From the NCBI GenBank assembly GCA_021808195.1, contig JAKBCE010000041.1, forward strand, positions 1-28,842: a stretch of DNA of 28,842 bases, read 5' to 3'. The notes beneath the pieces are model-generated. The model searched no databases and had not been told where the DNA came from. It was given only the letters and a program-made list of their open reading frames with translations. Numbering within the stretch: position 1 is the stretch's first letter; each line of letters opens with the position of its first letter. A program made the translations under genes and the position numbers. This stretch comes from Pseudomonadota bacterium (lineage in GTDB: Bacteria; Pseudomonadota; Gammaproteobacteria; Steroidobacterales; Steroidobacteraceae). This document shows positions 1-15,013 of this stretch, one piece after another.

Positions 1-937
1 CGAGATCGACCCCGAGCGGCCGGACGCGCTCGATGAGGCCGAGACCGGCGGACTCGGCCGCGAGGCGTGCATACCGCCGCTCGTCGAGATCGGTGTGCGG
101 GGGATAGTAGTGGAAGCACTCGAGCCGAGGCGCGGCAGCGCCGGCGAGCGACGCTAGCACCATGGAGGAATCGAGTCCGCCGGAGAGCGAGACCAACACG
201 CTCTCGAAGCACGCGCCCCAGGCGCGAACCACTTCCCGGGTGCAGCGACCGAGCCGCTCGGCGGCCCCGGGCCCTTCGATCGGCGCTGCCGCCGCGATCT
301 GGAGCGGATCCCAGTGACAGGTCCTCAGGACCGAGCCGCCATGATGGCGCGCGCACTCCCCACCGACTAGCTGCGAGACACCCTCGAGCCCGGTGCGCCG
401 GCTGTGCTCGCGCACCAGGCTCAGACAGGCCGCCACATACGCCCAGTCCGCCCGAAACGGTTCGCTGCGCATCGGCAGCACGTCGCGGATGGAGGAGCAA
501 TACACGTCGATCGCGCCGAGGCGGGTGGTGTAGCACGGCAACCCCGCCGATGGATCTCGCAGAACACAGACGCTGCCCGAGTCCGGCTCACGGAGCACCG
601 CAACGTATCGGCCCCAATAGCGCTCCAGGAGCCGGCGACCCTCGGAGGCTGCCATTGCGCAGCTCTCCGCGTCGTCGAACGCCGCCGGTGCCGGTCGGGA
701 CACGCCCTCGCCGTCGGACCTGAAGACGGCCCCGAGTACCACACCCTGCCCGCCCGCGAGGGGCCGCGCCGCATTGCCTGCTTGCCACTCGCCGACGCAA
801 CGCACTTCGAAGCCCGCACCCCGGCTGACCGTTCGCCACTCCTCAGCCGCTCGCTGCAGCCCCTCGAGCAGCCGCTGCGCCTGCGCACGCGCCGCGACGT
901 CTCGATCGTTCCAGATGAACACCAAATACCGGAACAC
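1..937 (-). CDS. Lasso peptide cyclase C (asparagine synthetase-like), module 1, partial
   Basis: This is the ATP-dependent macrolactam synthetase of a lasso cluster: it adenylates the Asp/Glu side chain and closes the ring with the core's Gly1. Reading leftward from a GTG at 937, 312 codons are present and the gene runs off the left edge (family length is about 600). Residues 1-160 are the degenerate glutaminase-like domain; it begins VFRYLVFIWN and lacks the Cys2 of true asparagine synthetases, as lasso C proteins do. The ATP-binding PP-loop SGGLDSS lies at 252-258. The start is two bases after the stop of the upstream B gene, so the two are coupled. The protein aligns by eye with the second C protein in this window (shared FIWN/FLWN start, VLRD..GLPCY, PP-loop, DERRYARLA). 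Confidence 0.9.
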   Translation of the reverse strand, partial: MFRYLVFIWNDRDVAARAQAQRLLEGLQRAAEEWRTVSRGAGFEVRCVGEWQAGNAARPLAGGQGVVLGAVFRSDGEGVSRPAPAAFDDAESCAMAASEGRRLLERYWGRYVAVLREPDSGSVCVLRDPSAGLPCYTTRLGAIDVYCSSIRDVLPMRSEPFRADWAYVAACLSLVREHSRRTGLEGVSQLVGGECARHHGGSVLRTCHWDPLQIAAAAPIEGPGAAERLGRCTREVVRAWGACFESVLVSLSGGLDSSMVLASLAGAAAPRLECFHYYPPHTDLDERRYARLAAESAGLGLIERVRPLGVDL

Positions 938-939
938 GG

Positions 940-1662
940 TCAGATGCTCAGAATGGGTGAATACTGGCGCACGCGGTCCGGCGCGTCATTGAAGAGGACC
1001 GCCCCGTACTGGACCCAGCAATGCGCATGAAACGGCGCGGTGCGCACACCGAAGACCCAGTGCGGGTGCAGGCCGTACTGCGCAAGGAAAGTCACGAGCG
1101 CCAGCGAGTCGAGCAGACAGGCGCCGCGTGCGCTGTAGAACCACGGCCGCAGATGCACGAATCGGCGCACCAGCGCCTGCGCGTGCCCGACATCAAACCG
1201 TGCACCGGGCGGAGAGTCGATCGGGCGTTGCCGGCGGGTCTGCTCGAGCACCGTGTACATCGGCCGAAGCCTCAGTGCACTCGCCGCTGCCGCACAGGCC
1301 CAGGCCGCACGGCGCAGGTCGCGCCCGTTCGGCCGCGGCGGTGCATCGAAATCGAATTCGAGCAGCGTGCGCTGCGGCGATTCGATCGAGATCGGCGTCG
1401 CGGCATGACCTGCGCCGCGCTCGCACACCAGCATCCCGTGCTCGATCAGCCGACCGAGAACCGCCGGAGGAGACCCGAGCGTCATCGGGGCCGGCAGCGG
1501 CCACGCTCCGATCCACCCCGAGAGGCGCGCCGCGGGCTGCACCGCGAGGTAGCGGTTGCGCCGCAGATCCATCAGGACCGCATGAGGGCCGCACAAGGCC
1601 AGATGAACATGGTGCGCCAGCCAATACGGTTCCGTCCGTTCCAGTTCCGTGCCCTGCTGCAT
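940..1662 (-). CDS. Lasso peptide leader protease B (fused B1-B2), module 1
   Basis: B cleaves the leader from the lasso precursor so that the free Gly1 amine can be cyclised. The protein has 240 residues. Residues 15-85 resemble the PqqD-like leader-recognition domain (MDLRRNRYLAV), and 160-240 are the transglutaminase-like cysteine protease domain. The putative triad is Cys182 (ACLLDSLAL), His214 (FHAHCWVQ) and Asp226 (FNDAPD). I chose the ATG at 1662 because GGGGAGG lies just upstream and the residues that follow match the N-terminus of the other B protein; the open frame extends further upstream without family similarity. The gene lies 149 bases after the exporter gene and is followed at once by C. 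One-piece B proteins are the usual proteobacterial form. Confidence 0.9.
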   Translation of the reverse strand: MQQGTELERTEPYWLAHHVHLALCGPHAVLMDLRRNRYLAVQPAARLSGWIGAWPLPAPMTLGSPPAVLGRLIEHGMLVCERGAGHAATPISIESPQRTLLEFDFDAPPRPNGRDLRRAAWACAAAASALRLRPMYTVLEQTRRQRPIDSPPGARFDVGHAQALVRRFVHLRPWFYSARGACLLDSLALVTFLAQYGLHPHWVFGVRTAPFHAHCWVQYGAVLFNDAPDRVRQYSPILSI

Positions 1663-1811: not shown

Positions 1812-3578
1812 TCAGGCCGCCGCCGCACCCGGATGTTGCGCCGCCCACAATGCCGCGTACCGCCCCCCCGCCTGCAGCAACATCTCGTGGCGGCCGCACT
1901 CGACGACTCTCCCGGCGTGGAGCACCAGGATGCACTCGGCGTGCACGACGCTCGCCAGGCGATGTGCGATCAGCACCGTGGTGGCCGTTCCCGCCATCGC
2001 ACGCAGGCTGGCCAGGACCGCCTGCTCGGTCCGGCTGTCGAGCGCCGCAGTCGCCTCGTCGAAGACATAGACGAGCGGGCGGCGCAGCGCCGCCCGCGCG
2101 ATCGCAATCCGTTGACGCTCTCCGCCCGAGAGCCGCATGCCACGCTCGCCGACGACCGTGTCGTAACCGTCGGGCAGTGCCGTGACGAACTCCTCGAGCT
2201 GCGCAATCCGCGCCGCCTGCCGCACCTCCTCGTGGCTCGCTTGCGGCTTCGCAACCGCGATGTTGAACTCGATCGTGTCATCGAACAGCACGACCTCCTG
2301 AGGGACCACCGCGATCGCGCTGCGCAGCGCCTGGGGTGCGATCTCCTTCAGCGCGAGTCCGCCGAGCCGGATCTCGCCGCGCTCCGGTTCGATCAGCCGC
2401 AGCAGCACTCTCACCACGGAAGACTTTCCCGAGCCGCTCTGGCCGACGATGCCGAGCGTCGATCCGGCGGCCACCGTGAAACTCACGGCCTCGAGCGCCG
2501 CCCGTTCGGGAGCGTAGCGCAGTGTCACCCGATCGAACTGCAGCGTCCCCTGCAGCGTATCCGGCAACGCCGCACCGCTCGCCGGTTCCGAGGCGACCGC
2601 CAGCAGCGCGATCGCCTTCTCGAGCAATGCTGCGCCCTGCGCAAACCCCTGCACGGCGAAACCGAGCATCTCGGCCGGCCGCACCAATTGCAGCATGTAG
2701 GTATTGACCAGCACGAAGCCCCCCACGGTGAGCGTTCCGGCGCGCACCGCATGCACCGCACAGATCAGGGTCGCCGCCAGAAACAGCGCGAACACCGCCG
2801 CCACCGCCAGTCCGTTGCGTGCATAGCGCCGATAGAAGTGCACCCACGCCGCCTCGCTGCGCTCGAGCGCCCGCCCGGCCTTACCCGTCACGAGCCGCTC
2901 CGCTCCGAACGCCTTCACCGTCTCGAAATTCAGCAGCCCATCGGTCATCACGGCCCCCGCCGCCACCCGGCTCGCGGCCGCGTCGCGGGCACTGTCGCCG
3001 ATGCGGCGCGCGGAGCGTCCGAATACCACGGCGTAGCAGAGCGCCGCGCCGCAAAAGAGCACGAGGAAGACCGGCTGGCGCAGTCGATGCAGCACATAGG
3101 CCGCGAGCAGCAGCTCGGCACACACCGGCAGCACGGTGAATACCAGGTGATGCAGAATCAGCCGCACCCCTTCGAGTCCGTTTTCGATGGTCTGGCTGAC
3201 CGCACCGGTCTGTCGGGTGAGGTGATAGCGCAACGGCAGCCCCAGCACATGCGCGAACAGCCGTTCGTTGAGCGTCCGCAACACCCGCCGCTCCGCCCTG
3301 GCGTACCGCAGCGTGCGCAATTCCGCACTCGAACGGCCGAGCCACTGGCTCACCGCATAGAGCCCCACGAGCACGCCGGCGCCGAGCGGAACGCGGCCCT
3401 CGCCACTCAGACCATCGATGATCCATTTCAACGCCAGAGGCGCCAGTGCGTTCATGGCAGCCCCGAACACAACCAGCAGCAGCACTTCCGTGAGCCGCAG
3501 CGCCACATACGGCGTCACCTCGCCACGCAGCAGCCCGACCGCCCGCCACCACAGGTGCCGGCGGGACTCGTAGGTCAC
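1812..3578 (-). CDS. ABC exporter with fused membrane and ATPase domains (lasso D type)
   Basis: This is a type I ABC half-transporter of 588 residues, expected to act as a homodimer in the inner membrane and to export the mature lasso peptide, often giving self-immunity (McjD role). The membrane domain spans about residues 20-330. The ATPase domain shows Walker A GQSGSGKS (379-386), Q-loop VVPQE (about 425-428), signature LSGGERQ (484-490), Walker B PLVYVFDEAT (501-510) and switch His539. The ATPase sequence also recalls the Atm1/HMT1 branch (VVPQEVVLFDDTIEFNIAVA), so the export substrate is inferred from position. The start is a GTG overlapping the previous gene's TGA (GTGA), which implies translational coupling. 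The order D before B and C is unusual; D is commonly last (A-B-C-D). Confidence 0.88.
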   Translation of the reverse strand: MTYESRRHLWWRAVGLLRGEVTPYVALRLTEVLLLVVFGAAMNALAPLALKWIIDGLSGEGRVPLGAGVLVGLYAVSQWLGRSSAELRTLRYARAERRVLRTLNERLFAHVLGLPLRYHLTRQTGAVSQTIENGLEGVRLILHHLVFTVLPVCAELLLAAYVLHRLRQPVFLVLFCGAALCYAVVFGRSARRIGDSARDAAASRVAAGAVMTDGLLNFETVKAFGAERLVTGKAGRALERSEAAWVHFYRRYARNGLAVAAVFALFLAATLICAVHAVRAGTLTVGGFVLVNTYMLQLVRPAEMLGFAVQGFAQGAALLEKAIALLAVASEPASGAALPDTLQGTLQFDRVTLRYAPERAALEAVSFTVAAGSTLGIVGQSGSGKSSVVRVLLRLIEPERGEIRLGGLALKEIAPQALRSAIAVVPQEVVLFDDTIEFNIAVAKPQASHEEVRQAARIAQLEEFVTALPDGYDTVVGERGMRLSGGERQRIAIARAALRRPLVYVFDEATAALDSRTEQAVLASLRAMAGTATTVLIAHRLASVVHAECILVLHAGRVVECGRHEMLLQAGGRYAALWAAQHPGAAAA

Positions 3579-4609
3579 CGGCCGCCCTTGGTCCGCCCGG
3601 GATCGTGCGGGTCAGTGCTCTCGGCCCCAACAGCCTCGCCGTCCGTCCCGTTCTTTTCCGGGTCCTCCTTGCCCTCCTTCGCCGCGGTATCCCGCGCAGT
3701 CGATTCCGCCTCGCGGCGCGCTCGAACTTCCGCCAGAATCGCCTCGGCCGCAGTCATTAGCCCGCGCGGGTCACGCGCCCGCAGCGTCAACACAGTGCCC
3801 TGCAGAGAGCTCTCATCCCGAGCGAGCAACTCGCCAATGGACTTCAGCGCCACACCGCATCGCACGGCGACCAACGTGACCAGCGCTCGGGCCCGGCAGA
3901 CCCGGCGCACCCGGGACCGCTCCGCCATCTGTTCGGCCGGAAGCTCGCAATACCGCGCCACGAACCCGATGACAGACCGCAGCAGCGCCAGCTGCTGCCG
4001 TTTGCGCACGGCACGGGCCTGAACGAACACCTCGCGAATCCCCGGTACTGCACCACCCGGGGAGGCAAAGGCCCGCGCCAATTCACTCTCGACGCCCCGG
4101 GCTCGCAACAGCCGGTATTCGCGCACCGCACCCGGTCCGCGTCCGAGCTGCTCGAGCACCACGCGACTATCGAGCCAGGCAAGCCGTCCCGGCTCTTGAT
4201 AGGCCGCATCCCCGGTCCAGCCCGCTCCGTTCAACGGACGGTGCAGCCACAGCACGAATTCAGTTCGAAATGCGTCGCGAACCCGGAAGGTCCGCAGCCG
4301 CTTGAACACCGGGCCCGTACTGCCCCGTGATCGATTGAAATGCAGAGCATAGGGCACGGTGACGTAGCGGAACATGCGTCCGATCGGAACTTGCGCCGCT
4401 TCAATCGCGAACTCTACACGGTCCGCTTCGCAGCGACAGGCGAACACCCGCCCGCCGCACCAGAACAGCATCGAATCGATGCTCTCCGTCATCTTGCGCC
4501 AATCGACCTCGTCCCGGACAAGCGGACCGGAACGACAGCCGCGCAGAATGACATGTAACAGCGCTGACGACCGATGATCCGATCCCAACTGAGCGCGCCT
4601 GGCCCTCAT
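3575..4609 (-). CDS. Catalytically degenerate Y1-transposase-like protein with DnaA-like C-terminal domain
   Basis: The 344-residue protein has the layout of Y1/REP-associated tyrosine transposases: HVILRG (19-24) matches the family's YHVxxRG, FNRSRGSTGPVFKRLRTFRV (91-110) matches RFNRRHGRxGHLFQGRFK, and a WL...LLEQFG-like segment follows at 145-156. The catalytic centre is gone: where the family has the NHxHLL motif this protein reads EADRVEFAI (61-69), and the RYIHLNPVRAG helix carrying the nucleophilic Tyr reads FVLWLHRPLNGAG (118-130). Residues 220-278 resemble DnaA domain IV (CELPAEQMAERSR..RARALVTLVA...IGELLARDESSLQ), a DNA-binding helix-turn-helix. A charged tail follows. The ATG at 4609 has GGGGAGGG upstream. 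The gene overlaps the exporter by GTGA and is first in this operon. I infer a domesticated DNA-binding protein, perhaps a regulator. Catalytic loss is judged by eye. Confidence 0.72.
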   Translation of the reverse strand: MRARRAQLGSDHRSSALLHVILRGCRSGPLVRDEVDWRKMTESIDSMLFWCGGRVFACRCEADRVEFAIEAAQVPIGRMFRYVTVPYALHFNRSRGSTGPVFKRLRTFRVRDAFRTEFVLWLHRPLNGAGWTGDAAYQEPGRLAWLDSRVVLEQLGRGPGAVREYRLLRARGVESELARAFASPGGAVPGIREVFVQARAVRKRQQLALLRSVIGFVARYCELPAEQMAERSRVRRVCRARALVTLVAVRCGVALKSIGELLARDESSLQGTVLTLRARDPRGLMTAAEAILAEVRARREAESTARDTAAKEGKEDPEKNGTDGEAVGAESTDPHDPGRTKGGR

Positions 4610-4692: not shown

Positions 4693-5241
4693 CTGTCACC
4701 AACACCGACAGACGACGACCGCCTCTCAACAAAAAAATACGTTACTCCGACACTTCGCACGATGCAACACCGCTCCCCGCAGTTGGTTTTGCCTGTTGCC
4801 CTTCACTCGGCCCTCGAACTTCAGGGACCTCTCCAATCCCCAACCTTCGCACCCGCAACCGCCGAATTTTCCCCAACTTTTCCCAACCTGCCGCGCTCGA
4901 ACCGAAACTCGGAAGCACCTGCGCATCGGTGAAAATCTGTTGGTTATAGTCATCAAGATTGGGCACTTTTTGCCGAGCGTCGCCCATCAACGAGGCCCAT
5001 AAGTCACTGAATACTAATGACAAATATTTTTTCGGCGGCCGCGGAACCGCATAACCCCGACTGCGCGGCTCCTTCTGCGACCCGCACCGTCCTGGGACGA
5101 ACTCGTTGATGGTAGGGACGAACTCGTCAATCCGCCTCTTGACAAACCGCGCCTCTAGGAATTGCGTAATCACGTCACCAAAGACTCGGCGCCGGTCCGC
5201 GAGTGATACGACAGTCCATTCACGCAATGAGGAGAACGACC
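4610..5241. other. Divergent intergenic region between the two lasso modules
   Basis: This 632-base stretch separates the leftward Y1-like/D/B/C operon from the rightward A/B/C operon and must hold both promoters. It is less GC-rich than the flanks, with A/T runs near 4730-4740 and 5021-5032. It contains a pair of 13-bp direct repeats (5094-5127) and a TTGACA at 5139-5144. I found no convincing precursor gene for the leftward module here. A long minus-strand open frame (5296-4742) crosses it, but no family is recognisable and its 5' end runs antisense through the precursor gene. Confidence 0.6.
5094..5127 (+). promoter_or_regulatory. Two 13-bp direct repeats 21 bp apart, candidate operator
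   Basis: GGGACGAACTCGT occurs at 5094-5106 and again at 5115-5127, start to start 21 bp, which is two helical turns and would place both copies on one face of the DNA. A -35-like TTGACA follows at 5139-5144; no good -10 is visible at 16-18 bp (TTGCGT/TGCGTA). The repeats end 114 bases before the precursor ATG. The binding protein is unknown; the DnaA-like domain of the divergent gene is one candidate. Confidence 0.4.
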
Positions 5242-5334
5242 ATGCAGAACCTCGGCCATATTTCGACGGAGACGAAGGGAACGCGCGGAACCGCAACGGA
5301 GCAGGGAGTCATCCTCGGATTCGATCCGCGTTAA
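5242..5334 (+). CDS. Lasso peptide precursor A
   Basis: This 30-codon gene encodes a 12-residue leader ending ...STETK and the core GTRGTATEQGVILGFDPR. The hallmarks are Thr at leader position -2 (TKG junction), Gly as core residue 1, Glu at core residue 8 for a Gly1-Glu8 isopeptide ring, and a ten-residue tail with bulky candidates for steric locks (Ile12, Leu13, Phe15, Arg18). GAGGAG at 5229-5234 lies seven bases before the ATG and decides the start; an in-frame ATG at 5227 would give a 17-residue leader but has no ribosome site. The gene is followed by a hairpin and then B and C on the same strand. The leader is short for the class. The only other junction with Thr at -2 (TRG) would leave no acidic residue at positions 7-9. 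Confidence 0.88.
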   Translation: MQNLGHISTETKGTRGTATEQGVILGFDPR

Positions 5335-5341
5335 CGGAACC

Positions 5342-5371
5342 GGCGGTGTGCGGCGTCAGCCGCACACCGCC
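5342..5371 (+). terminator. 13-bp perfect hairpin between precursor and B gene
   Basis: GGCGGTGTGCGGC (5342-5354), a GTCA loop and GCCGCACACCGCC (5359-5371) form a perfect 13-bp stem beginning eight bases after the precursor stop. It is followed by TTCCCCC and not a T run, so it probably acts as a partial terminator or as protection of the short precursor mRNA, letting A be made in excess over B and C. Confidence 0.65.
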
Positions 5372-5407
5372 TTCCCCCTGAAGGCTCTACGAAGGGAAAT
5401 TCACGCC

Positions 5408-6115
5408 ATGTATGATCTCGCGCCGGACGTCTTTGCATGCGCCACAGGACGGCGCTACATCTTTCTCGACTTGAAACGCGATCGCTATATCGCTGTATCT
5501 GCCGCCCGGTTGCAACATCTTGCCCCGATGATCAGCGGTTCGCACCCGGACCACCACGCAAACGACCGTCTCGGTGTGCACGATGACTCGTCCACGGATG
5601 TGGCCGAAGAGCTACTGCAAGCAGGACTCTTGTGTCATGCGCCGCGGCTCGAAGGACCCCGGCTGTCACTGCCCGCCGCCGCCACCTGTGAATTAGAATA
5701 TTCGAACCGCGCGACGACAGACCGCCGGACACCGCGGCATAGTCTCCGGGCAGTCCGGGCAATGCTTCGTGCAGACATCGCCCTCCGGTGGACCCCACTA
5801 TGGCGGATTGCTGACCGCATTCGCGCAAACAAGAAGCACGCAGCACCGGACTTATCCGATCCACCCCCATGGGAGGTCGAGTCCATTACCTCCTCGCTTC
5901 TACATATCAGACCGTGGTATCCGCGAAACTACCTCTGTCTGTATGACTCCCTTGCTCTGATGCTGCTTCTTGGGAGCTGTCGAATTAGAGCAGATTGGTT
6001 CTTTGGCGTCAGAGAGGACCCATTCATCGCGCACTGTTGGGTTCAGCATAAATCCACGGTTCTCAATGATCACCTAGATCGAATCCGCCTCTTTGTTCCA
6101 ATCATGGCCATTTGA
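5408..6115 (+). CDS. Lasso peptide leader protease B (fused B1-B2), module 2
   Basis: This leader peptidase has 235 residues. Residues 5-80 form the leader-binding PqqD-like part (FLDLKRDRYIAV at 19-30). The C-terminal cysteine protease domain has Cys177 (YLCLYDSLAL), His209 (FIAHCWVQ) and Asp221 (VLNDHLD). I chose the ATG at 5408, with GAAGGGAAA upstream, because it matches the N-terminus of the other B protein; an earlier ATG at 5348 lies inside the hairpin and adds unrelated residues. The gene lies 73 bases after the precursor and nine before C. Both B proteins share RPWxxx...C(L)xDSLAL and VFGVR/FFGVR...AHCWVQ, so they are homologous but clearly divergent. Composition is noticeably less GC-rich than in module 1. 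Confidence 0.92.
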   Translation: MYDLAPDVFACATGRRYIFLDLKRDRYIAVSAARLQHLAPMISGSHPDHHANDRLGVHDDSSTDVAEELLQAGLLCHAPRLEGPRLSLPAAATCELEYSNRATTDRRTPRHSLRAVRAMLRADIALRWTPLWRIADRIRANKKHAAPDLSDPPPWEVESITSSLLHIRPWYPRNYLCLYDSLALMLLLGSCRIRADWFFGVREDPFIAHCWVQHKSTVLNDHLDRIRLFVPIMAI

Positions 6116-6124
6116 TCAACCGCG

Positions 6125-7948
6125 ATGGAATTTCCCTACATTGCGTTCCTCTGGAACCCCCGCGATTTCGCCCAGTCCCAGAATGCTGCTCAGCTCCTGA
6201 AACAGTTTTCACGCACGGCATGGATTACGCAGATCGAGCAGCCTGGTCTGGTGGTCTACAGAAAACCGATTGCAACCCGCAGCATCCGGACATACGTTCT
6301 CCCGAACAACACGGGCGTCCTCTTTGGGACCATATTTCGTCGCAGTTCGACTCGCCAATTGATCGCAGAAGAACTCGCCAATGATCCTGATCTCTGCACA
6401 TCATCCCCTCATGTTGCCGACACCTTGACCCGAAACTATTGGGGAGGATTTATAGCGCTGCACTCACAACCTGGTTCCGGCCAATGGTGCGTACTCCGCG
6501 ATTGCTCAGGATCCCTTCCCTGCTATTACTCCAGCATACGCGGAGTCACCCTGGCGACTTCCGATGCCCGCTATATGTTTTCCTGCTCGATCTGGCGCCG
6601 CGAATCGGGACTCCCCGCGCCCCCTCGCATCAACTGGCATTATTTGTCGCACTTTCTCCAAGACTCTCAGCTGCCGATCCGAGGAACCGGCCTTTTGGGT
6701 GTCCAAGAACTCCTGGCCGGGGAAGCTCTCATCAACCGGGAGAGAGATCCTCAGATTGAACTGACCTGGAACCCCGCGAACTTTGTGATCGACACGTCGG
6801 GACACTCAATTGCGAGGATTTGCGAAGAACTCCGCGAGACGACTCGCGCGTGCATTCAGGCATGGGCTCAGGCTCATGAATCGATCGTTCATCACCTATC
6901 CGGCGGATTTGACTCATCTTTAATTCTCGCACTGCTCACTCACAGCAACCCTAGACCCAGCGTCCTCTGCATCAACCGATTCGCCGAAGGCCCTGCAGAG
7001 GATGAGCGCGCGTACGCAAGACTCGCATCCCAGGTCTCCGCCGCGCCGCTCGTCGAATGTCCGTGGGGTTTTTCGAGCTACACACTGGATCATTCGTGTT
7101 TTGACATCCCCTTCGGCGCGAAGCCGTATGTTCAGTCACTCCTGTATCCCGTGGAGTCCTCATATCTCGCCCATCTTCAGTCGTTATACCACTTTGATTC
7201 GATATGGACTGGCGAAGGCGGAGACCACCTATTCATCGCGTATCGAAGCAACTATGGACTCATAGACTTCTTGGAATCTTACGGCCTGAACCGAAATACT
7301 CTATCTATCGCGTTAGACTCCTCTAGGCTGACCGGAACGTGCATTCCAATTCTTCTCAGCAACTTATTTTTCCACGTCCTACGCCTTGCCGCGCATCGAT
7401 CAATCAAATTTCGGGCATTCCGCGATGCGGCACCTGACGAACGCCCGCCATCCGTCCATCCCTGGATGGCTCAACTACTCGACTCACCACCCGGCAAGCG
7501 TGAGCAAATCGGATTACTCGCAGAAGTGCTCCACCGTCATCATGGAACTCCGGGATCACTCGACTCCATGACTCGTCATCCACTACTTTCCCAACCCCTC
7601 ATCGAATTGATCCTGCGAATCCCGCTCTATACTCTGCTGCATAACGGTCAGACGCGGGGGCTAGCTCGACGCGCATTCGCGAATACCTTACCGCGAGCCA
7701 TCCTTGATCGCGAAGCAAAGGGCGAAACAACGCACAGTCTCACCGGAATACTTCAGCGCAGTCTTCCCTTTGTGCGTGATGTTCTCCGTGACGGGGCCCT
7801 CCGGAGTCAGGCTCTAGTCGACCCCTCACTCGTCAGGACCATTCAAAACAGCCAGTCGGCCCTTGAGGCTCACCAGATTCTTCCGCTCTGCGCAGCCATT
7901 GCTGCCGAACTTTGGTCACGTACTTGGTCCTCGGGGCACATACAATAG
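6125..7948 (+). CDS. Lasso peptide cyclase C (asparagine synthetase-like), module 2
   Basis: This is a full-length (607-residue) lasso macrolactam synthetase. The N-terminal glutaminase-like domain (about 1-215) starts MEFPYIAFLWN and lacks the catalytic Cys2. The synthetase domain carries the PP-loop SGGFDSS (259-265), the AEDERAYARLASQV segment (291-304) and GEGGDHLF (363-370), as expected for ATP/Mg2+ binding. It should adenylate Glu8 of the core and form the Gly1-Glu8 bond together with B. The gene starts nine bases after the B stop and is the last gene of the A-B-C operon. Composition is low in GC for this window: two sampled 60-base lines are about 52% and 58%, against 63-73% in lines of the right-hand operon. 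This suggests a separate origin. Confidence 0.93.
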   Translation: MEFPYIAFLWNPRDFAQSQNAAQLLKQFSRTAWITQIEQPGLVVYRKPIATRSIRTYVLPNNTGVLFGTIFRRSSTRQLIAEELANDPDLCTSSPHVADTLTRNYWGGFIALHSQPGSGQWCVLRDCSGSLPCYYSSIRGVTLATSDARYMFSCSIWRRESGLPAPPRINWHYLSHFLQDSQLPIRGTGLLGVQELLAGEALINRERDPQIELTWNPANFVIDTSGHSIARICEELRETTRACIQAWAQAHESIVHHLSGGFDSSLILALLTHSNPRPSVLCINRFAEGPAEDERAYARLASQVSAAPLVECPWGFSSYTLDHSCFDIPFGAKPYVQSLLYPVESSYLAHLQSLYHFDSIWTGEGGDHLFIAYRSNYGLIDFLESYGLNRNTLSIALDSSRLTGTCIPILLSNLFFHVLRLAAHRSIKFRAFRDAAPDERPPSVHPWMAQLLDSPPGKREQIGLLAEVLHRHHGTPGSLDSMTRHPLLSQPLIELILRIPLYTLLHNGQTRGLARRAFANTLPRAILDREAKGETTHSLTGILQRSLPFVRDVLRDGALRSQALVDPSLVRTIQNSQSALEAHQILPLCAAIAAELWSRTWSSGHIQ

Positions 7949-8077: not shown

Positions 8078-10162
8078 CTACCGTGGAACTGCCGCTTTTG
8101 GAATAGACAGTCCAACGCTCGCCAGCTGTGCGGGCGATACGGAACTCGGCCCGAGTAAATTTAACTCCGCCCAATAAAGATTTCGCTTCCTTGAGATTCT
8201 TGCCTCCGCAGGCACACTGAGCCAATGAACGCTGCGTCGATACGCGAATGCCTCTACGGTCGTGCCAGTTGCCTTCCATTCTTCAAGCAGCTGCCCTGCA
8301 TCCGGATTTCTACTCACGAACTCCAGCAATACCGGTCCATTCGCGGGCCTCCCGCTTCCCGCTGGATCAAAGTATTGATAGCGCATGATATTCTTCGCTA
8401 CCGGCGCCCCACCGAAGAAGATCGACGATTCTCGCCTCCAAAGCGCTCCCCCAAGAGCATACTCGGTGACGTTGTAATCTGCCGGATCTCCGACTTCTGC
8501 CGCCACATACTGATGCAGCCGCTCTATGGCATCTGCCGCGAACATGCCACCGAAACTCCATCCCATCACCATCGCCCTACTCACGTGAACTCCGACGGAT
8601 TCCGCTGCTGGAATCGCGTGCGCGAACGTCGAGACAGCACTCTCTTGTGCGCGCTTGGAGGCAATGAAATTCCCAAAACCCCTATCGTCAATGGTCGCCC
8701 AGTTGACGAGCATCACCGCGATTCCTGCGTGCACGAGGCTCGCAACGGGGTATGACGTAATCCACTGTGCGTACCTCGAGTAGCTCTCGGAAAATCCGTA
8801 TGCCATGACCGCCATTGGTACGCATCGTCCCGCCGATCCGGAAGGCACCGCGAGAAATCCCGTACTGTACGTTCCGAAGCTAGACGGGACCCTGACGGTT
8901 TTGAATCTAAAACTGAGTCTGTGCTGCCGTGCATCCATTTTTCCGAGGCTCGTCATCTCCCCGGAATGTAGATCAATCTCGACGAGTCTAGGCGGATCTC
9001 TCAGCGTTTGCGCAATACAGACGGCCCGTGTCCTATCCGCGTCAAATTGGCACGCACGCCCAAAGCCCCCAAGATCACCATGCGGCCAACGAAACACCCT
9101 CACGAGCGTGTCCGTCTTCGTATCCACCTCATCGATACGCCAACGGTTTACCCCTCCAGGTCTTTGAAATCCCAGCGAGTCGATAAACACCCGATCGTTT
9201 CCCGAGAACCACACTCCCCCCACGTCCCGGATGAATCTCCGGGCGGTCAATGCCGACGCTTCTCTTAGCCCGCCGCGCGGATGCAACAGAAATGCCTTCA
9301 ATGAGCCGACGCAACCGCATCGATTCTTGCGGGATCGATTCGCTTCAATGCGGTTCGATATCAGCAGGAGTCGACCGCGAGGTGACGCGAACATTGAGTC
9401 AATTCTGAATAGCGGGACGTCTCGGTGAATTCTCACTCCGGACTCTATATCGTAGATTTTCGTGCGGACGGATTGCAGTGATGACACCAGCCCCAGAAGT
9501 CGCCCGTGGTTCCATATGAGCTGCGGCGCGAGCTTGAATCGGGCGATGGAGAGATGAATCTTTTTTGCCAAAACTCCCCGCGACTCCTGCACCAGTCTGA
9601 CTGCCCCAACCCGTTCCACCACCGGCCAACGCGCCCAACTCGGCGAAATGAGCTCAAGCGTCGTCATCCCGCCCTTGACGCGAACGGAATTTCTTCCGCG
9701 CCAGCGCCACGGAACGGCATATGAATACGCCAACAGCCCACGACGTCGATCGTAGGCTGAAAAATTCAATGGATGCTTGCTCTGAAGCAGAACCCCCCGC
9801 GCCTGGCTGAGAATATTCTCCCATCGAATTTCGTTCACCGAACCATACTGAGAGAACAGAATGGTCCTGGCATTTCGCCACAGCACGGTTCCAATTCCGC
9901 GCCCCTTGAATACGACGCTTACCTGGTCGCCGCCGATATCCCTGATCGCAACCCGCTCCATGCCGTGCGAACTGGCACGAATTCTCTCCACTTCTGCCAA
10001 TTTCGTACCACCCGGCGATAGCGCATACGACAACACGACCCACGGTTGTTGCGCGTTTTCCGAATCGGCATGCACACCGGTCATAAGACAGGCAAGCGTC
10101 ACCAGCAGAACGAGGACGCTCACGGGCGCACGAGCAAACACTGTCATCACATTCTTTCGCAT
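8078..10162 (-). CDS. Lasso peptide isopeptidase (S9 prolyl-oligopeptidase-like, secreted)
   Basis: The family (AtxE2-type) hydrolyses the isopeptide bond of its cognate lasso peptide, returning it to a linear form. The 694-residue protein begins with a signal peptide (positive MRKN, hydrophobic VSVLVLLVTLACLMTG, cut after VHA near residue 32). A beta-propeller-like region follows to about residue 420, then an alpha/beta-hydrolase domain with nucleophile Ser536 in GWSFGG. The likely acid is Asp621 (SRNPDAG) and the base His646 (SVHWLS). I chose the ATG at 10162 (TGGAG nine bases upstream) over one at 10210 because it places the signal peptide at the N-terminus. It lies convergent to the A-B-C genes and downstream of the receptor, as in astexin-type clusters. 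A general dipeptidyl peptidase is the alternative; the context argues against it. Confidence 0.88.
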   Translation of the reverse strand: MRKNVMTVFARAPVSVLVLLVTLACLMTGVHADSENAQQPWVVLSYALSPGGTKLAEVERIRASSHGMERVAIRDIGGDQVSVVFKGRGIGTVLWRNARTILFSQYGSVNEIRWENILSQARGVLLQSKHPLNFSAYDRRRGLLAYSYAVPWRWRGRNSVRVKGGMTTLELISPSWARWPVVERVGAVRLVQESRGVLAKKIHLSIARFKLAPQLIWNHGRLLGLVSSLQSVRTKIYDIESGVRIHRDVPLFRIDSMFASPRGRLLLISNRIEANRSRKNRCGCVGSLKAFLLHPRGGLREASALTARRFIRDVGGVWFSGNDRVFIDSLGFQRPGGVNRWRIDEVDTKTDTLVRVFRWPHGDLGGFGRACQFDADRTRAVCIAQTLRDPPRLVEIDLHSGEMTSLGKMDARQHRLSFRFKTVRVPSSFGTYSTGFLAVPSGSAGRCVPMAVMAYGFSESYSRYAQWITSYPVASLVHAGIAVMLVNWATIDDRGFGNFIASKRAQESAVSTFAHAIPAAESVGVHVSRAMVMGWSFGGMFAADAIERLHQYVAAEVGDPADYNVTEYALGGALWRRESSIFFGGAPVAKNIMRYQYFDPAGSGRPANGPVLLEFVSRNPDAGQLLEEWKATGTTVEAFAYRRSVHWLSVPAEARISRKRNLYWAELNLLGPSSVSPAQLASVGLSIPKAAVPR

Positions 10163-10511
10163 CTTAAGGCTCCACAATTTTTGGTCACGCACGCACCTAT
10201 GCGCGCTCAACGAATTCAGGGCGGAGCTCCATTGGGATCCCCATCGGTACGCCTCGTCACGCCGGTGAGTTCAATTCTGTCGCAAGTTTCCGGCCGTCGA
10301 GATCCCCCCAATCACCGGCCGTTCGCTCACTGGTGACTTGCTCGACCGCCTCCGGAATTTAACGCACCCCGCAATTCCGCTCAGCGATGCGCACAGAACT
10401 CGCACCGTCGATTTCCCCCGAATGATCAAATACTGAAAGACTGTCTGTTGTTTACCGGTGCGCCGTGAGCGCGCGAGCGCGTCCTTGCGCAAGCCGCGCA
10501 CACCACTCAGA
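10163..10511. other. Intergenic region between receptor and isopeptidase genes
   Basis: This 349-base gap between two minus-strand genes shows no convincing gene. Near the receptor stop is a very GC-rich, hairpin-prone patch (10455-10505, including the palindrome CTTGCGCAAG at 10484-10493). There is also a seven-pair inverted repeat with one G·T pair (10312-10318/10330-10336). Either could end the receptor transcript. An isopeptidase promoter is expected near 10170-10260, but I see no strong hexamers. Short frames here lack lasso precursor features. Confidence 0.5.
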
Positions 10512-13196
10512 TCACCATCTTATGGAGACCGTGGCACTGATGAATCTACCCAGAGGATTGGCGTTGGCGCCGTCGTACCCCAACATGCTGCTCGTCAGCT
10601 GCGAAACTTCCGGCGGTGCCCGATCTGCGCAATTGATGCAGGACAGATCTAGCATCGGACGCCCCCACCGATTCTTCCCGTCAAACAGCCGATACGATGC
10701 CGTGAAGTCGAATGTGGTCCATGACGCAATCGGAACCGGTGTCAGTCCGGACGTATCTTCGTATCGATTGACGTAATTCGTGAACGCAGTGATTCCCCAT
10801 GCCTTATGGTGCAGGCCGACAGAGAGCCGCCCCCTGAAATTGACAGGTCGCCCGAATATTCCCAGGGTGCTGAAGGAAGGCGCGGCAGAAACAATTCGAC
10901 TGTCATATGAAAAGATGTACGCCCCACTAAATCCCAGGTCATATCGATATCCATCGATCTCCTGCGTGAAATTGAGCGTTGCCAGCAACCCTCTGGTACG
11001 ACTTGTTCCTACGTTTTGAAACCGATCATCAACGACTGCCGTCGCGTCCGCGAGTTGTCTCGGCGGGCCATAGCCCGGATACGCGGTCAAATTTGTAAAA
11101 GCGTCAGACGCGTTTACGTATTGTTCTAATTCTGCGTACGATGGGTTTCGGAGGATGTAGGCCGAATATAGATTTCCGTTATCCAGCGCGTCCAAAATCG
11201 GAACAATCGAGTTCTCGAGCTTGTTCGTAAACCGTGCCTCATAATACGTGATGTGTCCCTGCAGTCCTTCGAGTTCTCTCGGTTCAAAATCAACGCCGAC
11301 AGTCCACTCAGTCGAGCGCTCAGCCGTTAGCCCTGGATTCGCTCCCACTCGCACGAGCGCGGCGGTCGATTGTCCGGTCGGCAGCGTTGCTTCCGGAGAG
11401 TTAACTAGATAGGTATAGACACCACCGTAGAGTTCATAGAAGTTTGGCGCCTTGAACGATCTACTGAGGGTGCCTCTGAATTTGATTCCCCGCACCGGCT
11501 GCCATGCGATTCCGATTCGCGGATTTGTCGTGGATCCGAAGTCAGAATAGTGATCGAGGCGCGCCGCGACGTCGACATTGAGTTTCTGTCCATGATCCCC
11601 TTCGTTCCTGGGACCCAGCAACGGGATCTCGCCTTCGACGAACGCAGAGTCCACTTCACGACTCTTGCGAATACTCTGTTCGACTTCATAAAGTCCGGCG
11701 AAGTAGGCCGATAAAGAGTCTTTCCGGTATTGCACACCGACGGCTGCCTTTGCGGTACCGCCGGGCATCCGGAACAAAGGCCCGCTGCCGACCAGCGATC
11801 CGGTCGTGAGCGCGTTATCCCCGGCGAGAAGACCCTCCGTAGAGCTCGTATGCGAGTCATTTCCTCCGTACGAGCCATGTGCCCGCAGCGACCAATGGTG
11901 TGGAAGCAACATGTCGGCGCCAAGCGAGTAGGAGTACTGGGTGACTCCGACGTACGCGCCTAGCGTGATTCCGGCGGTCACCAGAGTGGAATCCCGGCGA
12001 TGCGAGTAGAAGGCTGAACCGTTGAGAGAAACATCTCGAGCGAGAGACTCGTTCCCAGTTATATAGACACTGTTTGTCGTCATCGATGGAGTCAGCTGAC
12101 CCGGAACGGAATTGAAGCTGTACGCGCGATCATCGGCGTTCAATGGCGTTTCGTCGTGATATTCGTACGCTATCAGCGCGTGCCCGGAGGCCCAGTTGAC
12201 TCCATAGGATTGAGACGCACGATAGTCGTTGAGACTCCCGTGTGTTACGGACCCATATTCCAGCGACGTTGCGCCGCCTTCCTGCCTGTCCTTCAGAATG
12301 TAGTTGACAACGCCCCCCATTGCATCCGATCCGTATATGGCAGATGCGCCGTCGGTCACGACATCGATTCGTTTGATCATGCTCAACGGAATGACGGAAA
12401 TATCGGTAAACGCGCCATTGATTCCGGCAGGCGCAAGACGATGACCATTCACCAGCACGAGGGTCGAGTCATATCCCATACCGAGGAGATCGACGCCCGC
12501 TCCGTCGGCCTCGTTTCCGGCGTCATTTTGCGTGGGCAGATTATTGACTTCGGACCCGACGGAATGCAGGTTCTCCGGCAGCGACGCCATGAGCTGCTCG
12601 ACGCTCTGGTATCCGGATTCCCGGATCTGGCGCGCCGTGATGCTGATGATCGGCTCAGACGGCGGCGGACCGCCGCTGATGTGGCTGCCCGTCACGATGA
12701 CTTGCTGCAGGATCGGCGGCGTTTGCGCGTTCCGTGACTGTCGCGACGGCTTAGGCCTGCGTGCAGTCGGGCCCTCCTTCTCAATCACCGCCGGTGAGCC
12801 ACCAGATTCGGTACGCCGGTTCGCCTCGCCCCTTGCCCTCGGGAAAATCTCAACGGTCCGGTCCGTGACGGAGTACGTGAGGTGAGTCCCTTTCAGCAGT
12901 CGGGCAATGACTTCACGTGCGCTATATCGCCCCGACAGTCCCGGAACCGCGTGTTCCGTATGCTCGGCGCCGCGGAAGATGATCTGCAGGTGCGCCTGTC
13001 GCCCGAAGGCAAGCAGCGCCTGGCGCAGTCCTTCAGGTTGAATTTGAAATGCAGTGACGTGATCCAGAACGCCGGCGTGTGCTGGCGTTGCGAACGCCAG
13101 CGGGAGCGCACAAAGCGATGCGGCCACAAAGTGATGAAGCCGCGCATGAAGTCTGCTCGCGCGGCGATGAGTCAGGCTGTGAACATCAAACACCAT
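10512..13196 (-). CDS. TonB-dependent receptor with N-terminal STN signalling domain (FecA-like)
   Basis: This 894-residue outer-membrane protein has a signal peptide cut after AHA near residue 41. An STN domain (about 49-118, FQIQPEGLRQALLAFGRQAHLQIIF...TVEIFPR) is the periplasmic part that touches FecR. After a linker come the plug from about 163 (QQVIVTG, later LVLVNGHRL and DGASAIYGSDAMGGVVNYIL) and a barrel ending in Trp. GGGGGA lies five bases before the ATG. It lies downstream of sigma and fecR and upstream of the isopeptidase. From this context I infer that it imports the lasso peptide and reports its presence to FecR; in known isopeptidase-type lasso clusters a TonB receptor occupies this position. 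A siderophore receptor is the alternative, but no siderophore genes are near. Confidence 0.88.
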   Translation of the reverse strand: MVFDVHSLTHRRASRLHARLHHFVAASLCALPLAFATPAHAGVLDHVTAFQIQPEGLRQALLAFGRQAHLQIIFRGAEHTEHAVPGLSGRYSAREVIARLLKGTHLTYSVTDRTVEIFPRARGEANRRTESGGSPAVIEKEGPTARRPKPSRQSRNAQTPPILQQVIVTGSHISGGPPPSEPIISITARQIRESGYQSVEQLMASLPENLHSVGSEVNNLPTQNDAGNEADGAGVDLLGMGYDSTLVLVNGHRLAPAGINGAFTDISVIPLSMIKRIDVVTDGASAIYGSDAMGGVVNYILKDRQEGGATSLEYGSVTHGSLNDYRASQSYGVNWASGHALIAYEYHDETPLNADDRAYSFNSVPGQLTPSMTTNSVYITGNESLARDVSLNGSAFYSHRRDSTLVTAGITLGAYVGVTQYSYSLGADMLLPHHWSLRAHGSYGGNDSHTSSTEGLLAGDNALTTGSLVGSGPLFRMPGGTAKAAVGVQYRKDSLSAYFAGLYEVEQSIRKSREVDSAFVEGEIPLLGPRNEGDHGQKLNVDVAARLDHYSDFGSTTNPRIGIAWQPVRGIKFRGTLSRSFKAPNFYELYGGVYTYLVNSPEATLPTGQSTAALVRVGANPGLTAERSTEWTVGVDFEPRELEGLQGHITYYEARFTNKLENSIVPILDALDNGNLYSAYILRNPSYAELEQYVNASDAFTNLTAYPGYGPPRQLADATAVVDDRFQNVGTSRTRGLLATLNFTQEIDGYRYDLGFSGAYIFSYDSRIVSAAPSFSTLGIFGRPVNFRGRLSVGLHHKAWGITAFTNYVNRYEDTSGLTPVPIASWTTFDFTASYRLFDGKNRWGRPMLDLSCINCADRAPPEVSQLTSSMLGYDGANANPLGRFISATVSIRW

Positions 13197-13303: not shown

Positions 13304-13333
13304 AAACTGATACGTCGTAGGCGACGTCAGTTT
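13304..13333 (-). terminator. Hairpin directly after fecR
   Basis: On the transcribed strand AAACTG-ACGTCG pairs with CGACGT-(AT)-CAGTTT around a four-base loop. The 12-pair stem has a two-base bulge and starts within the FecR stop codon, in the 135-base gap before the receptor. It may lower read-through from the sigma/fecR genes so that the receptor is driven mainly by its own sigma-dependent promoter; no such promoter is evident by eye. Confidence 0.45.
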
Positions 13334-14414
13334 AGGACGTGTGACAATCGTTTAGTCGAGGCGTGTTCACAGACGCATGCAATCGGACGCACACGCCACG
13401 GCTCGTGCGAACGGCCACAACGGGAAGCACTCGGCTGAGTCCGTTGAGCCATTGAGGAATGTGATGACTGAGAACGAGCGTGGTGAGACGAAGGTTTGCG
13501 GCGGCAGGCGACACCCGGATCGGCGAGCGCGAATATCGACTGAGATTCTCGGCAATCACTCCGAGCGGTTCGTCCACGAACTCGAGGCGTCCTCTCGTCC
13601 AGCCGAGCGCCAAGCGGGGACTGACGTAGCGGATGTCCCCAGGAATCTGCGTGCCATAGACGAATCGCTCGCCGCGGCGCAACCGAATCGGCTTCAGGAC
13701 CAGCCCCCCGAGGCGCGGTGCGCGCGGCATGCCTGCGACGGACACCTCCACTTGTCCCTGGGTCACAGTGACTTCGGTGCGCCCGGATTCCCGATCGACC
13801 ACGAATGCCGTGCCGAGATCGCGGATTTGTTCATTGCCCGCAGTGACCAGAAAAGGCCAGTGCTTGCGATGGACGACGTCGAACCAGGCTTCACCGCGTT
13901 TCAGAACGAGCGCCCGCTGCCGCGGGGTGTAGGTCACGTCGAGTACCGTCCGTGCACCGAGGACCACCGTCGAGCCATCGGCTAGACGGAACTGCCGCGT
14001 CTGTCGGGCGGCCGTGCGGTAGACGGAGGACTCGACGGGGGATTGCTCGGACGCGGTCGGTACGGGCTTCGGTGGCACCTCCGGGCGGAACAGGACAGTG
14101 CTGGCTGCACACACCGCAAGGACAGCGCCCGCCGGCATCCACCGCATCGACTGCCAGACGCTTCGGGCCTTCCGGTGCGTATGTGGCGCATCGATCCGGA
14201 CCACGCTCCGGGAGTCTTCCAGCCCCTGGGCGTCTCGGTAGAGCTGCGCGCAGGCCGCATACACTCTGCGATTGTCGTCGTCGAGGACCCACTGTCGCCA
14301 GGCCTCCTGCTGCTGCGGCGTCAGACCATCGGCTGCGCATCGCAGCGCATGCCAATCGAGCGCTGCGAGCCAGCGATCTTCGTCGTATTCGTAGAGGAGT
14401 TCAGCGGGCCTCAC
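13332..14414 (-). CDS. FecR-family anti-sigma/signal-relay protein
   Basis: This single-pass inner-membrane regulator (360 residues) holds its partner sigma factor until the receptor's STN domain signals. Residues 14-65 match the cytoplasmic N-terminal segment of the family (ALDWHALRCAADGLTPQQQEAWRQWVLDDDNRRVY). A membrane helix lies at about 92-110 (WMPAGAVLAVCAASTVLF). The periplasmic FecR domain follows at 133-250 (RLADGSTVVLGARTVLDV...GEAWFDV...GTAFVV), and a C-terminal STN-like segment at about 285-345. The GTG start overlaps the sigma-factor TGA (GTGA), so the pair is translationally coupled and presumably made in a fixed ratio. Confidence 0.88.
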   Translation of the reverse strand: MRPAELLYEYDEDRWLAALDWHALRCAADGLTPQQQEAWRQWVLDDDNRRVYAACAQLYRDAQGLEDSRSVVRIDAPHTHRKARSVWQSMRWMPAGAVLAVCAASTVLFRPEVPPKPVPTASEQSPVESSVYRTAARQTRQFRLADGSTVVLGARTVLDVTYTPRQRALVLKRGEAWFDVVHRKHWPFLVTAGNEQIRDLGTAFVVDRESGRTEVTVTQGQVEVSVAGMPRAPRLGGLVLKPIRLRRGERFVYGTQIPGDIRYVSPRLALGWTRGRLEFVDEPLGVIAENLSRYSRSPIRVSPAAANLRLTTLVLSHHIPQWLNGLSRVLPVVAVRTSRGVCVRLHASVNTPRLNDCHTS

Positions 14415-15013
14415 GGCGCAGCACTCCCGTCGTCTCCGTTGTCCAGGGACGCATGCAGATACGCGAGCGCCCGCGCCACATAAATCTTGGCCATCCGGCC
14501 GCTGATACCCATGGCCTGGCCGACCTCATCGAACGGCAGCCCCTGCACGACGCGCAAAGTGAACGCGTCGAGGCAGCGCGGCGGCAACTGCTCGAGCGCC
14601 TGCTCTATGATCTCCAGACGCTGTCGGGCGTCGACCACAGTCTCGGCAGACGGGGCCAACTGCTCCGCTTCGGCACGAACCGCTTGGACGAACCGCTCGC
14701 GCACGCCACGGCGGCGTCCGTGATCGGTCATGAGATTGAGTGCACACCGCCACAGGTAACTCGCCAATGAGGCGATCGAGCCCTGCCGTTCCACCGCAAG
14801 TACTTTGACGTACGCATCCTGGGCAATCTCCTTGGCCACCTCGACAGATCCGGTCCGCTGCGTGAGAAATCTCACGAGCGGCGCATGGTGCTGCCGAGCG
14901 ACTTCTGCGAGCGCCGCAGAGCGGTCCTCGTGCGGCGCACCGGTGACCTCAGTGCCCTCGCCGTTCGATTCGGATACCGCGTCGAGTGACGCCTCCGCGC
15001 TTCGTGCGTTCAC
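14411..15013 (-). CDS. ECF (FecI-type) RNA polymerase sigma factor
   Basis: This 200-residue ECF sigma factor carries region 2 at about 40-95 (LVRFLTQRTGSVEVAKEIAQDAYVKVLA, ...SYLWRCALNLMTDHGRRR) and region 4 at about 130-190 (QALEQLPPRCLDAFTLRVVQGLPFDEVGQAMGI, then the recognition helix ISGRMAKIYVARALAYL). The FecI-type linkage to FecR and an STN receptor predicts that it transcribes the receptor and perhaps the isopeptidase when the ligand is sensed. The first 30 residues are a poorly conserved, acidic extension; the ATG at 15013 is the longest supported start. Confidence 0.9.
   Translation of the reverse strand: MNARSAEASLDAVSESNGEGTEVTGAPHEDRSAALAEVARQHHAPLVRFLTQRTGSVEVAKEIAQDAYVKVLAVERQGSIASLASYLWRCALNLMTDHGRRRGVRERFVQAVRAEAEQLAPSAETVVDARQRLEIIEQALEQLPPRCLDAFTLRVVQGLPFDEVGQAMGISGRMAKIYVARALAYLHASLDNGDDGSAAP

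Follow-up and report, generated by a model that had tools for sequence, protein, structure and literature searches.

Proteobacterial lasso clusters that carry an isopeptidase gene, a TonB receptor and FecI/FecR are known, and in DnaA the recognition helix is known to read RDHTTV. The E. coli TnpAREP (PDB 4er8), a catalytic protein that recognises REP hairpins, lacks a DnaA-like tail; it differs in these respects from the protein described here. This text is about a gene, called Y1L, in a stretch of 28,842 nucleotides from a member of the Steroidobacteraceae (contig JAKBCE010000041.1 of assembly GCA_021808195.1; hereafter the window), in which a predicted RAYT/TnpAREP-DnaA(IV) fusion protein without its catalytic residues is encoded inside a lasso cluster. 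It is probable, in our judgement, that Y1L derives from TnpAREP and has been exapted to regulate the lasso genes of the cluster that encodes it, as a sequence-specific DNA-binding protein acting at the divergent region next to it.

The closest described proteins are those of TnpAREP/RAYT subclass 2.1 (TIRYT; Quentin et al., 2018, PMC6006769), which, as far as the accessible text describes them, share with Y1L a Y1 scaffold and a helix-turn-helix (HTH) of the Bac_DnaA_C type. Y1L matches the subclass profile over nearly its full length, and the degenerate proteins nest among intact ones of the same make-up. Unlike TIRYT proteins, Y1L lacks the HUH motif, the Tyr, the third metal ligand and (in 7 of 8 loci) terminal inverted repeats, and it adjoins lasso genes. 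The tree of that study, to judge from the same part of the text, was built on those 722 of 924 sequences whose HUH and Y motifs were complete, so that degenerate relatives had been encountered but were set aside. The closest concept is that of TldR, dead TnpB proteins turned regulators (PMC13418256, accessible part). Nuclease-dead TnpB repressors are likewise proteins of the IS200/IS605 world that lost catalysis, kept nucleic-acid binding (in Y1L predicted) and are tied to neighbouring genes; they belong to another protein family and are RNA-guided, whereas Y1L would be protein-guided.

On the lasso side, Metanodin (PMC12670498) is a Steroidobacterales example, and the clusters of this kind, so far as the available text of that paper shows, resemble the window in having A, B, C, D, an isopeptidase-like gene, a TonB receptor and sigma/FecR. 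They differ in that the window adds a dead transposase gene and the Y1L family a second B-C pair. The word “transposase” has 0 occurrences in the main text of the Metanodin paper, and a lasso component of the Y1L kind was not found in the accessible text of the literature searched, which included PMC12670498, PMC6006769, PMC7470986, PMC8987985, PMC8266576 and PMC13418256 and from which subscription papers were mostly outside the scope.

The Y1L protein

A sequence-only reading of the window had described the protein as a Y1 scaffold with a DnaA-like domain that had lost both the HUH pair and the catalytic Tyr, encoded in an intact frame with a strong ribosome site and a stop that overlaps the exporter start. 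All of this was confirmed. The predicted structure (AF2 model) has the Y1 fold and aligns with 4er8, the subclass 2.1 profile is matched, and the C-terminal HTH characteristic of TIRYT proteins is present. Compared with domain IV of DnaA (PDB 3pvp, 1j1v), the recognition helix reads RDESSL and there is no AAA+ ATPase domain by Pfam, the rest of the model aligning with RAYT. R64 and E66 stand where the HUH pair is expected, and neither His is present in any of the 32 family members (0/32); Trp replaces the catalytic Tyr in 32/32, W121 in Y1L, and the third metal ligand is likewise gone. Cleavage of single-stranded DNA is predicted to be lost in Y1L. The start of the gene has a good ribosome site, and the stop/start overlap with the exporter is GTGA.

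The protein is nonetheless conserved. In 11 overlapping ortholog pairs, dN/dS (approximate values by NG86) is 0.10–0.23 for the Y1 domain and 0.11–0.38 for the HTH, values which may be set beside 0.15–0.20 for the exporter (3 pairs); the C-terminal tail is relaxed (0.21–1.52, saturated in 2 pairs) and a short linker is variable. No premature stop lies inside the Y1L match in 10/10 loci (L009 is truncated by a contig end). Since dN/dS is 0.10–0.23 in the dead transposase domain, Y1L is not a pseudogene, and a dead domain under such strict constraint must be in use. Two copies, L004:540-1421 and P0010, have lost about 50 middle residues in frame.

Mobility is equally hard to see, because matching terminal inverted repeats above shuffles (5 each) are absent around Y1L in 7/8 loci, the exception being L006 with one 17-bp pair. 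Intact relatives do have them: terminal inverted repeats of 21–48 bp occur in 5/9 (L158, L160, L162, L163 and L041), composed of short direct repeats of approximately 7–9 bp, a structure that hints at recognition of tandem boxes by the DnaA-like tail. The helix RDESSL is common to Y1L of the window and to the intact L162 and L163, whose terminal repeats carry GGGATT/GGGAAAA-like boxes. When the boxes of the divergent region (see below) were compared with terminal repeats by shuffling, the best pairs were L162 (3' end)/L001 (2 of 200), L159/window (3 of 200), L160/L007 (4 of 200) and L159/L004 (6 of 200), most of 100 pairs being at chance; direct descent of the boxes from transposon terminal repeats is suggestive only. 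In the terminal repeats of the five intact relatives, a GTGCCGG- or GCCGGG-like motif occurs together with short direct repeats (TTTGGCTTA four times in L160, for example).

Linkage to lasso genes and the wider clade

A first protein search with Y1L gave 31 matches, including one of 99% identity. Ten loci of the genome collection carry a Y1L relative (L001–L010, all metagenome bins; the analysis is entirely sequence-based), with the exporter directly downstream in 10/10 and the A1-B1-C1 half divergent in the 7/7 whose contig extends that far. Across the order, taken as Steroidobacterales from match names (Steroidobacteraceae P0011; Steroidobacter P0097) and searched with 5 candidates scored per genome, Y1L occurs in 8/396 genomes (E ≤ 2.6e-87; next best match 2.4e-18), and all of these 8 belong to the 54 genomes in which a lasso B exceeds its cut-off (Fisher p 7e-8, kinship ignored). 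Gene linkage alone does not, of course, demonstrate function.

Genomes without Y1L have 65 further lasso B places above the cut-off. The neighbourhoods of all 65, some shortened by contig ends, were also examined, and local hidden Markov models (HMMs) recovered B or C in 60 of them. A RAYT-DnaA-like gene lies near 14/65, at 435–8542 bp from B, compared with 0/40 control windows, 20 kb in length, on 12 of these lasso-bearing genomes (round coordinates on long contigs, neither random nor GC-matched) and 0/10 windows at outside LytTR-type tandem sites. The difference between 14/65 and 0/40 has p 7e-4 with kinship ignored, and the 14 loci are not independent, L135, L138, L140, L144 and L146 being near-identical orthologs. 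The first HUH His is gone in 13/13 of the 14 lasso-adjacent relatives that have this column, as in the window and 10/10 Y1L loci; the Tyr is kept in 8 of the 14 and the second His in 8, and all three residues are lost, as in Y1L, in 5/14 (L121, L127, L128, L150, L153). HUH and Tyr are kept in 16 rows (14 distinct genes) without a lasso B within 20 kb. Among the lasso-linked members, L138 scores 24.5 bits against Pfam Y1_Tnp, still above the cut-off of 23, and L150 has no Pfam family match.

In a tree of 50 proteins, the degenerate rows fall into a single clade of 34 rows (support 97/92), itself nested within the intact proteins, and Y1L lies within a clade of 13 (support 100/100); several branches are long, some joins were flagged as unsafe by the tree program, and L121 and L134 (partial) were left out. 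A wider protein search gave 148 matches, and among the 120 listed 117 were new. None of these 117 has the full HUH and Tyr set: the first His is absent in 117/117, the second is kept in 111/117 and the Tyr in 97/117. Many relatives among the matches listed are annotated as “REP element-mobilizing transposase RayT” or “putative transposase”, annotations by which they may easily be dismissed as mobile-element debris in lasso clusters. Among 369 genomes of the class, 248 match the broad profile; in the best 9 non-Y1L loci, HUH and Tyr are kept in 6 and degenerate in 3. A lasso B is found in 1/19 best-matching class genomes checked, on another contig (the L209 genome), so that in this sample of the class the lasso link is confined to the order of the Y1L genomes. 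The three HUH-degenerate RAYT-DnaA-like proteins are L209, L214 and L215, and the genomes of the last two have no lasso B.

A dead RAYT-DnaA paralog away from lasso genes is conserved in L063, L064, L066, L070 and L164, all large genomes of the order. An ECF sigma-like gene lies beside the last four (tblastn; domains HMM-checked in L064 alone), and L063 has no sigma match by tblastn. The dead member L067 has sigma and FecR genes adjoining it on a 4.7-kb contig, with no lasso genes nearby.

The divergent region

Between Y1L and A1, boxes of the form AGGTTGGGRAnTG are repeated on the Y1L strand. Four are present in L005–L008, spaced by approximately 65, 82 and 43 bp (the last gap is 128 bp in L007 and L008), and a pair 43 bp apart is present in the window, L001, L002 and L004. 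In the window and L001–L004, a matrix built from L005–L008 finds 2–3 sites that score above 7 bits on the expected strand, and in L010 it finds six partly overlapping sites, three of them at the 65/82 spacing; conversely, the window-group matrix recovers 4/4 boxes in L005 and L006, and 3/4 plus a site near -40 in L007 and L008 (shuffle means 0.5–1.1, maxima 2–6). These cross-group sites are nearly all on one strand and their spacings match. As the two groups of regions are homologous, shared position proves little, and it is the repetition within each region that counts. In whole genomes, a GTTGGGRA pair at 40–45 bp, a pattern derived from the same loci, gives 5 matches in 5/10 genomes, all in the divergent region (reversed control 1), and GGTTGGGRA, for which 0.26 occurrences are expected in the window, is present there 3 times, twice within the divergent region. 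The array is the best candidate target of Y1L binding. By eye, the box resembles a DnaA box at 6/9 positions, which could be chance.

Several observations weigh against a Y1L-box system of this kind. The window has just two strong boxes, and a window-wide matrix scan gives 23 matches in 28.8 kb, one of them on the opposite strand in the divergent region, where a simple repeat count does not exceed chance (183 of 500 shuffles). In L010 the array is weak (2 sites with the window-group matrix), and 5/10 genomes have no pair at 40–45 bp. The likeness of the boxes to those in the terminal repeats of intact relatives is not significant after correction. A spaced GGGRAWW array is absent upstream of 20 other dead members, with at most three single matches (L126) or two (L067), so that the box is at best specific to Y1L. 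Outside this region, the same clade includes 9 degenerate rows that are not near lasso genes (among them L157, which keeps both His and has Phe in place of Tyr), which means that the lasso link is not universal, and the dead members L062 and L065 have no lasso genes nearby and nothing was found beside them.

The same region contains a second repeat. GGGACGAACTCGT occurs twice with a 21-bp period just 5' of the TTGACA hexamer that precedes A1, and direct repeats with such a period are typical for LytTR regulators. With up to 3 mismatches, the tandem is found at 20 places in 9/10 genomes, against 1 for the reversed control; six genomes have it at the lasso region and nine have it at other places. 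It points toward A1 in the window and L001–L003, toward Y1L in L007, L008 and L010, and is absent in L005 and L006. The GGGACGAANTCG tandem adjoins a LytTR response regulator gene in 4/4 outside loci tested by HMM (L052, L055, L058, L060, chosen for visible regulator-like ORFs, L053, L054, L056, L057, L059 and L061 being outside that test), and a histidine kinase was confirmed in 2 of the four. The GGGACGAACTCGTC tandem was accordingly set aside as a Y1L site. Because of these neighbours, it is probably not Y1L's, and positions 5094–5128 probably belong to a LytTR two-component system; the distribution suggests a small LytTR regulon that takes in the lasso genes. No sigma-70 promoter passed the scan, and the conserved blocks of the region are described as blocks only. 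In L061, a tandem site with 1 mismatch (L061:5991) precedes a TP_methylase-family gene (PF00590, L061:4605-5507(-)) by about 480 bp.

Proposed role and alternative explanations

The sequence-only reading had also tied Y1L to lasso genes and proposed a domesticated transposase serving as a DNA-binding component or regulator of the lasso operon, possibly at the divergent region; this is partly supported. Homologs are not confined to unrelated loci, with the exporter beside 10/10 and a relative at 14/65 further lasso loci, although some dead relatives are found elsewhere. Domestication is well supported, because the catalytic residues are lost, both domains are constrained, the place beside lasso genes is fixed and the family nests among intact transposases; for a DNA-binding role on the divergent region, the evidence is a conserved and fitting box array, from which we infer binding and regulation. 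The ancestor of Y1L would have been a subclass-2.1 TnpAREP transposase (TIRYT-type, HTH-tailed) that lost its HUH/Tyr active site and was then exapted as a lasso-gene regulator. With its DnaA-like HTH, Y1L would bind the divergent region that separates A1-B1-C1 from Y1L-exporter. Its most likely sites there are the GGTTGGGRA boxes, of which the loci with the fullest array have four and the window two clear ones, and the dead Y1 domain may be retained as a dimerisation or architectural scaffold. As an activator or a repressor, Y1L may then tune its own operon and precursor production, jointly with the LytTR two-component system and the ECF sigma/FecR pairs.

The boxes may instead belong to other factors, GGTTGGGRA to an ECF sigma and GGGACGAACTCGT to LytTR, with Y1L having no site here. 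The response-regulator genes beside the 21-bp tandem in 4/4 other loci tested and the sigma/FecR genes that flank the clusters favour this idea; it is nevertheless rather unlikely, given four same-strand boxes whose conserved wide spacing is unlike a promoter, and GTTGGGRA matches that, outside the divergent region, are intragenic and never just upstream of sigma, FecR or TonB genes. Another proposal, to which we give little credence, is that Y1L keeps the hairpin-binding side of RAYT and has mRNA or single-stranded DNA as its target, such as the conserved leader of its own gene. The Y1 domain is indeed constrained as much as the HTH, and the stretch from the boxes to the start of Y1L contains conserved blocks, but the HTH is of a double-strand-binding type.

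Purifying selection on that HTH also argues against Y1L being a translationally coupled accessory of the exporter or of peptide maturation, with DNA binding secondary or lost. Such a role would agree with the GTGA overlap in the window, with the exporter that follows Y1L in 10/10 loci and with the distant relatives at the exporter start in L134, L150 and L153; it is improbable when a relative stands beside B-C with no exporter in the fetched stretch in L068, L126, L127, L128, L135, L144 and L146, and when the exporter is on the opposite strand in L069, L138 and L140. Finally, the loss of catalytic residues and the copies shortened mid-protein (P0010 and L004) might be read as a decaying transposase hitchhiking in a lasso island, a view contradicted by the dN/dS of 0.10–0.23 in 11 pairs and by matches free of stops in 10/10 loci, and very improbable indeed.

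With regard to the wider family, we propose tentatively, with slightly less than even confidence, that the disarmed Y1/HUH clade with DnaA-like tails is a new class of cluster-specific lasso transcription factors in Steroidobacterales, in which the Y1L family reads spaced DnaA-box-like sites as a protein-guided counterpart of TldR. If the relatives are regulators, they would offer handles for awakening silent lasso clusters in these bacteria, most of which are known through metagenome bins, and the exaptation, if true, would be a clear bacterial case for a Y1 transposase. Y1L makes testable what the TnpAREP fold does without its chemistry.

Gene layout of the window

The window has the precursor, B protease/RRE and cyclase that define a lasso cluster (Table 1). 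On the minus strand, divergent from A1, Y1L comes first, followed by the exporter, B2 and the opening part of C2. The core of A1 is probably GTRGTATEQGVILGFDPR.

Table 1. Features of the lasso region of the window.
Feature	Position	Strand	Support or remark
C2, start of second lasso cyclase	2..931	-	PF00733; truncated by window end
B2, second lasso B protein	940..1662	-	NF033537, 84 bits
ABC exporter (lasso D)	1812..3578	-	start overlaps Y1L stop
Y1L, predicted catalytically dead RAYT/TnpAREP-DnaA(IV) fusion	3575..4609	-	344 aa
DnaA domain IV-like HTH of Y1L	3710..4003	-	residues 203-300, helix RDESSL
RAYT-like (Y1/HUH scaffold) domain of Y1L	4064..4567	-	residues 15-182; AF2 model and VIA-align to PDB 4er8
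W121, expected Tyr nucleophile position	4247..4249	-	
R64-V65-E66, expected HUH pair position	4412..4420	-	
Box 4 of array	4834..4846	-	AGGTTGGGGATTG
Weaker extra box	4867..4879	-	AAGTTGGGGAAAA; about one helix turn from preceding box, 4.6 bits only
Box 3 of array	4877..4889	-	AGGTTGGGAAAAG
LytTR-type site, copy 1	5094..5107	+	GGGACGAACTCGTT
LytTR-type site, copy 2	5115..5128	+	GGGACGAACTCGTC; 21 bp from copy 1
TTGACA hexamer preceding A1	5139..5144	+	same in window and 7/7 loci aligned there
A1, lasso precursor	5242..5334	+	30 aa; benenodin model match below cut-off
B1, lasso B	5348..6115	+	NF033537, 73.5 bits
C1, lasso cyclase	6125..7948	+	PF00733
Lasso isopeptidase-like gene	8078..10210	-	NF033523, 51 of 400 bits, far under cut-off
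TonB-dependent receptor	10512..13196	-	
FecR	13332..14414	-	PF04773
ECF sigma factor	14411..15013	-	PF08281, PF04542, PF07638

No convincing second precursor for B2/C2 was found. Of L001–L010, 5 have the second B-C pair in the Y1L operon (in L004 C2 is truncated by the contig end), and the other five, L006–L010, do not have it whole: it is broken or partial in 3 of them and was not found in L006 and L010, where Y1L and the exporter persist. In L001–L003 and L005, C2 is a full-length open reading frame.

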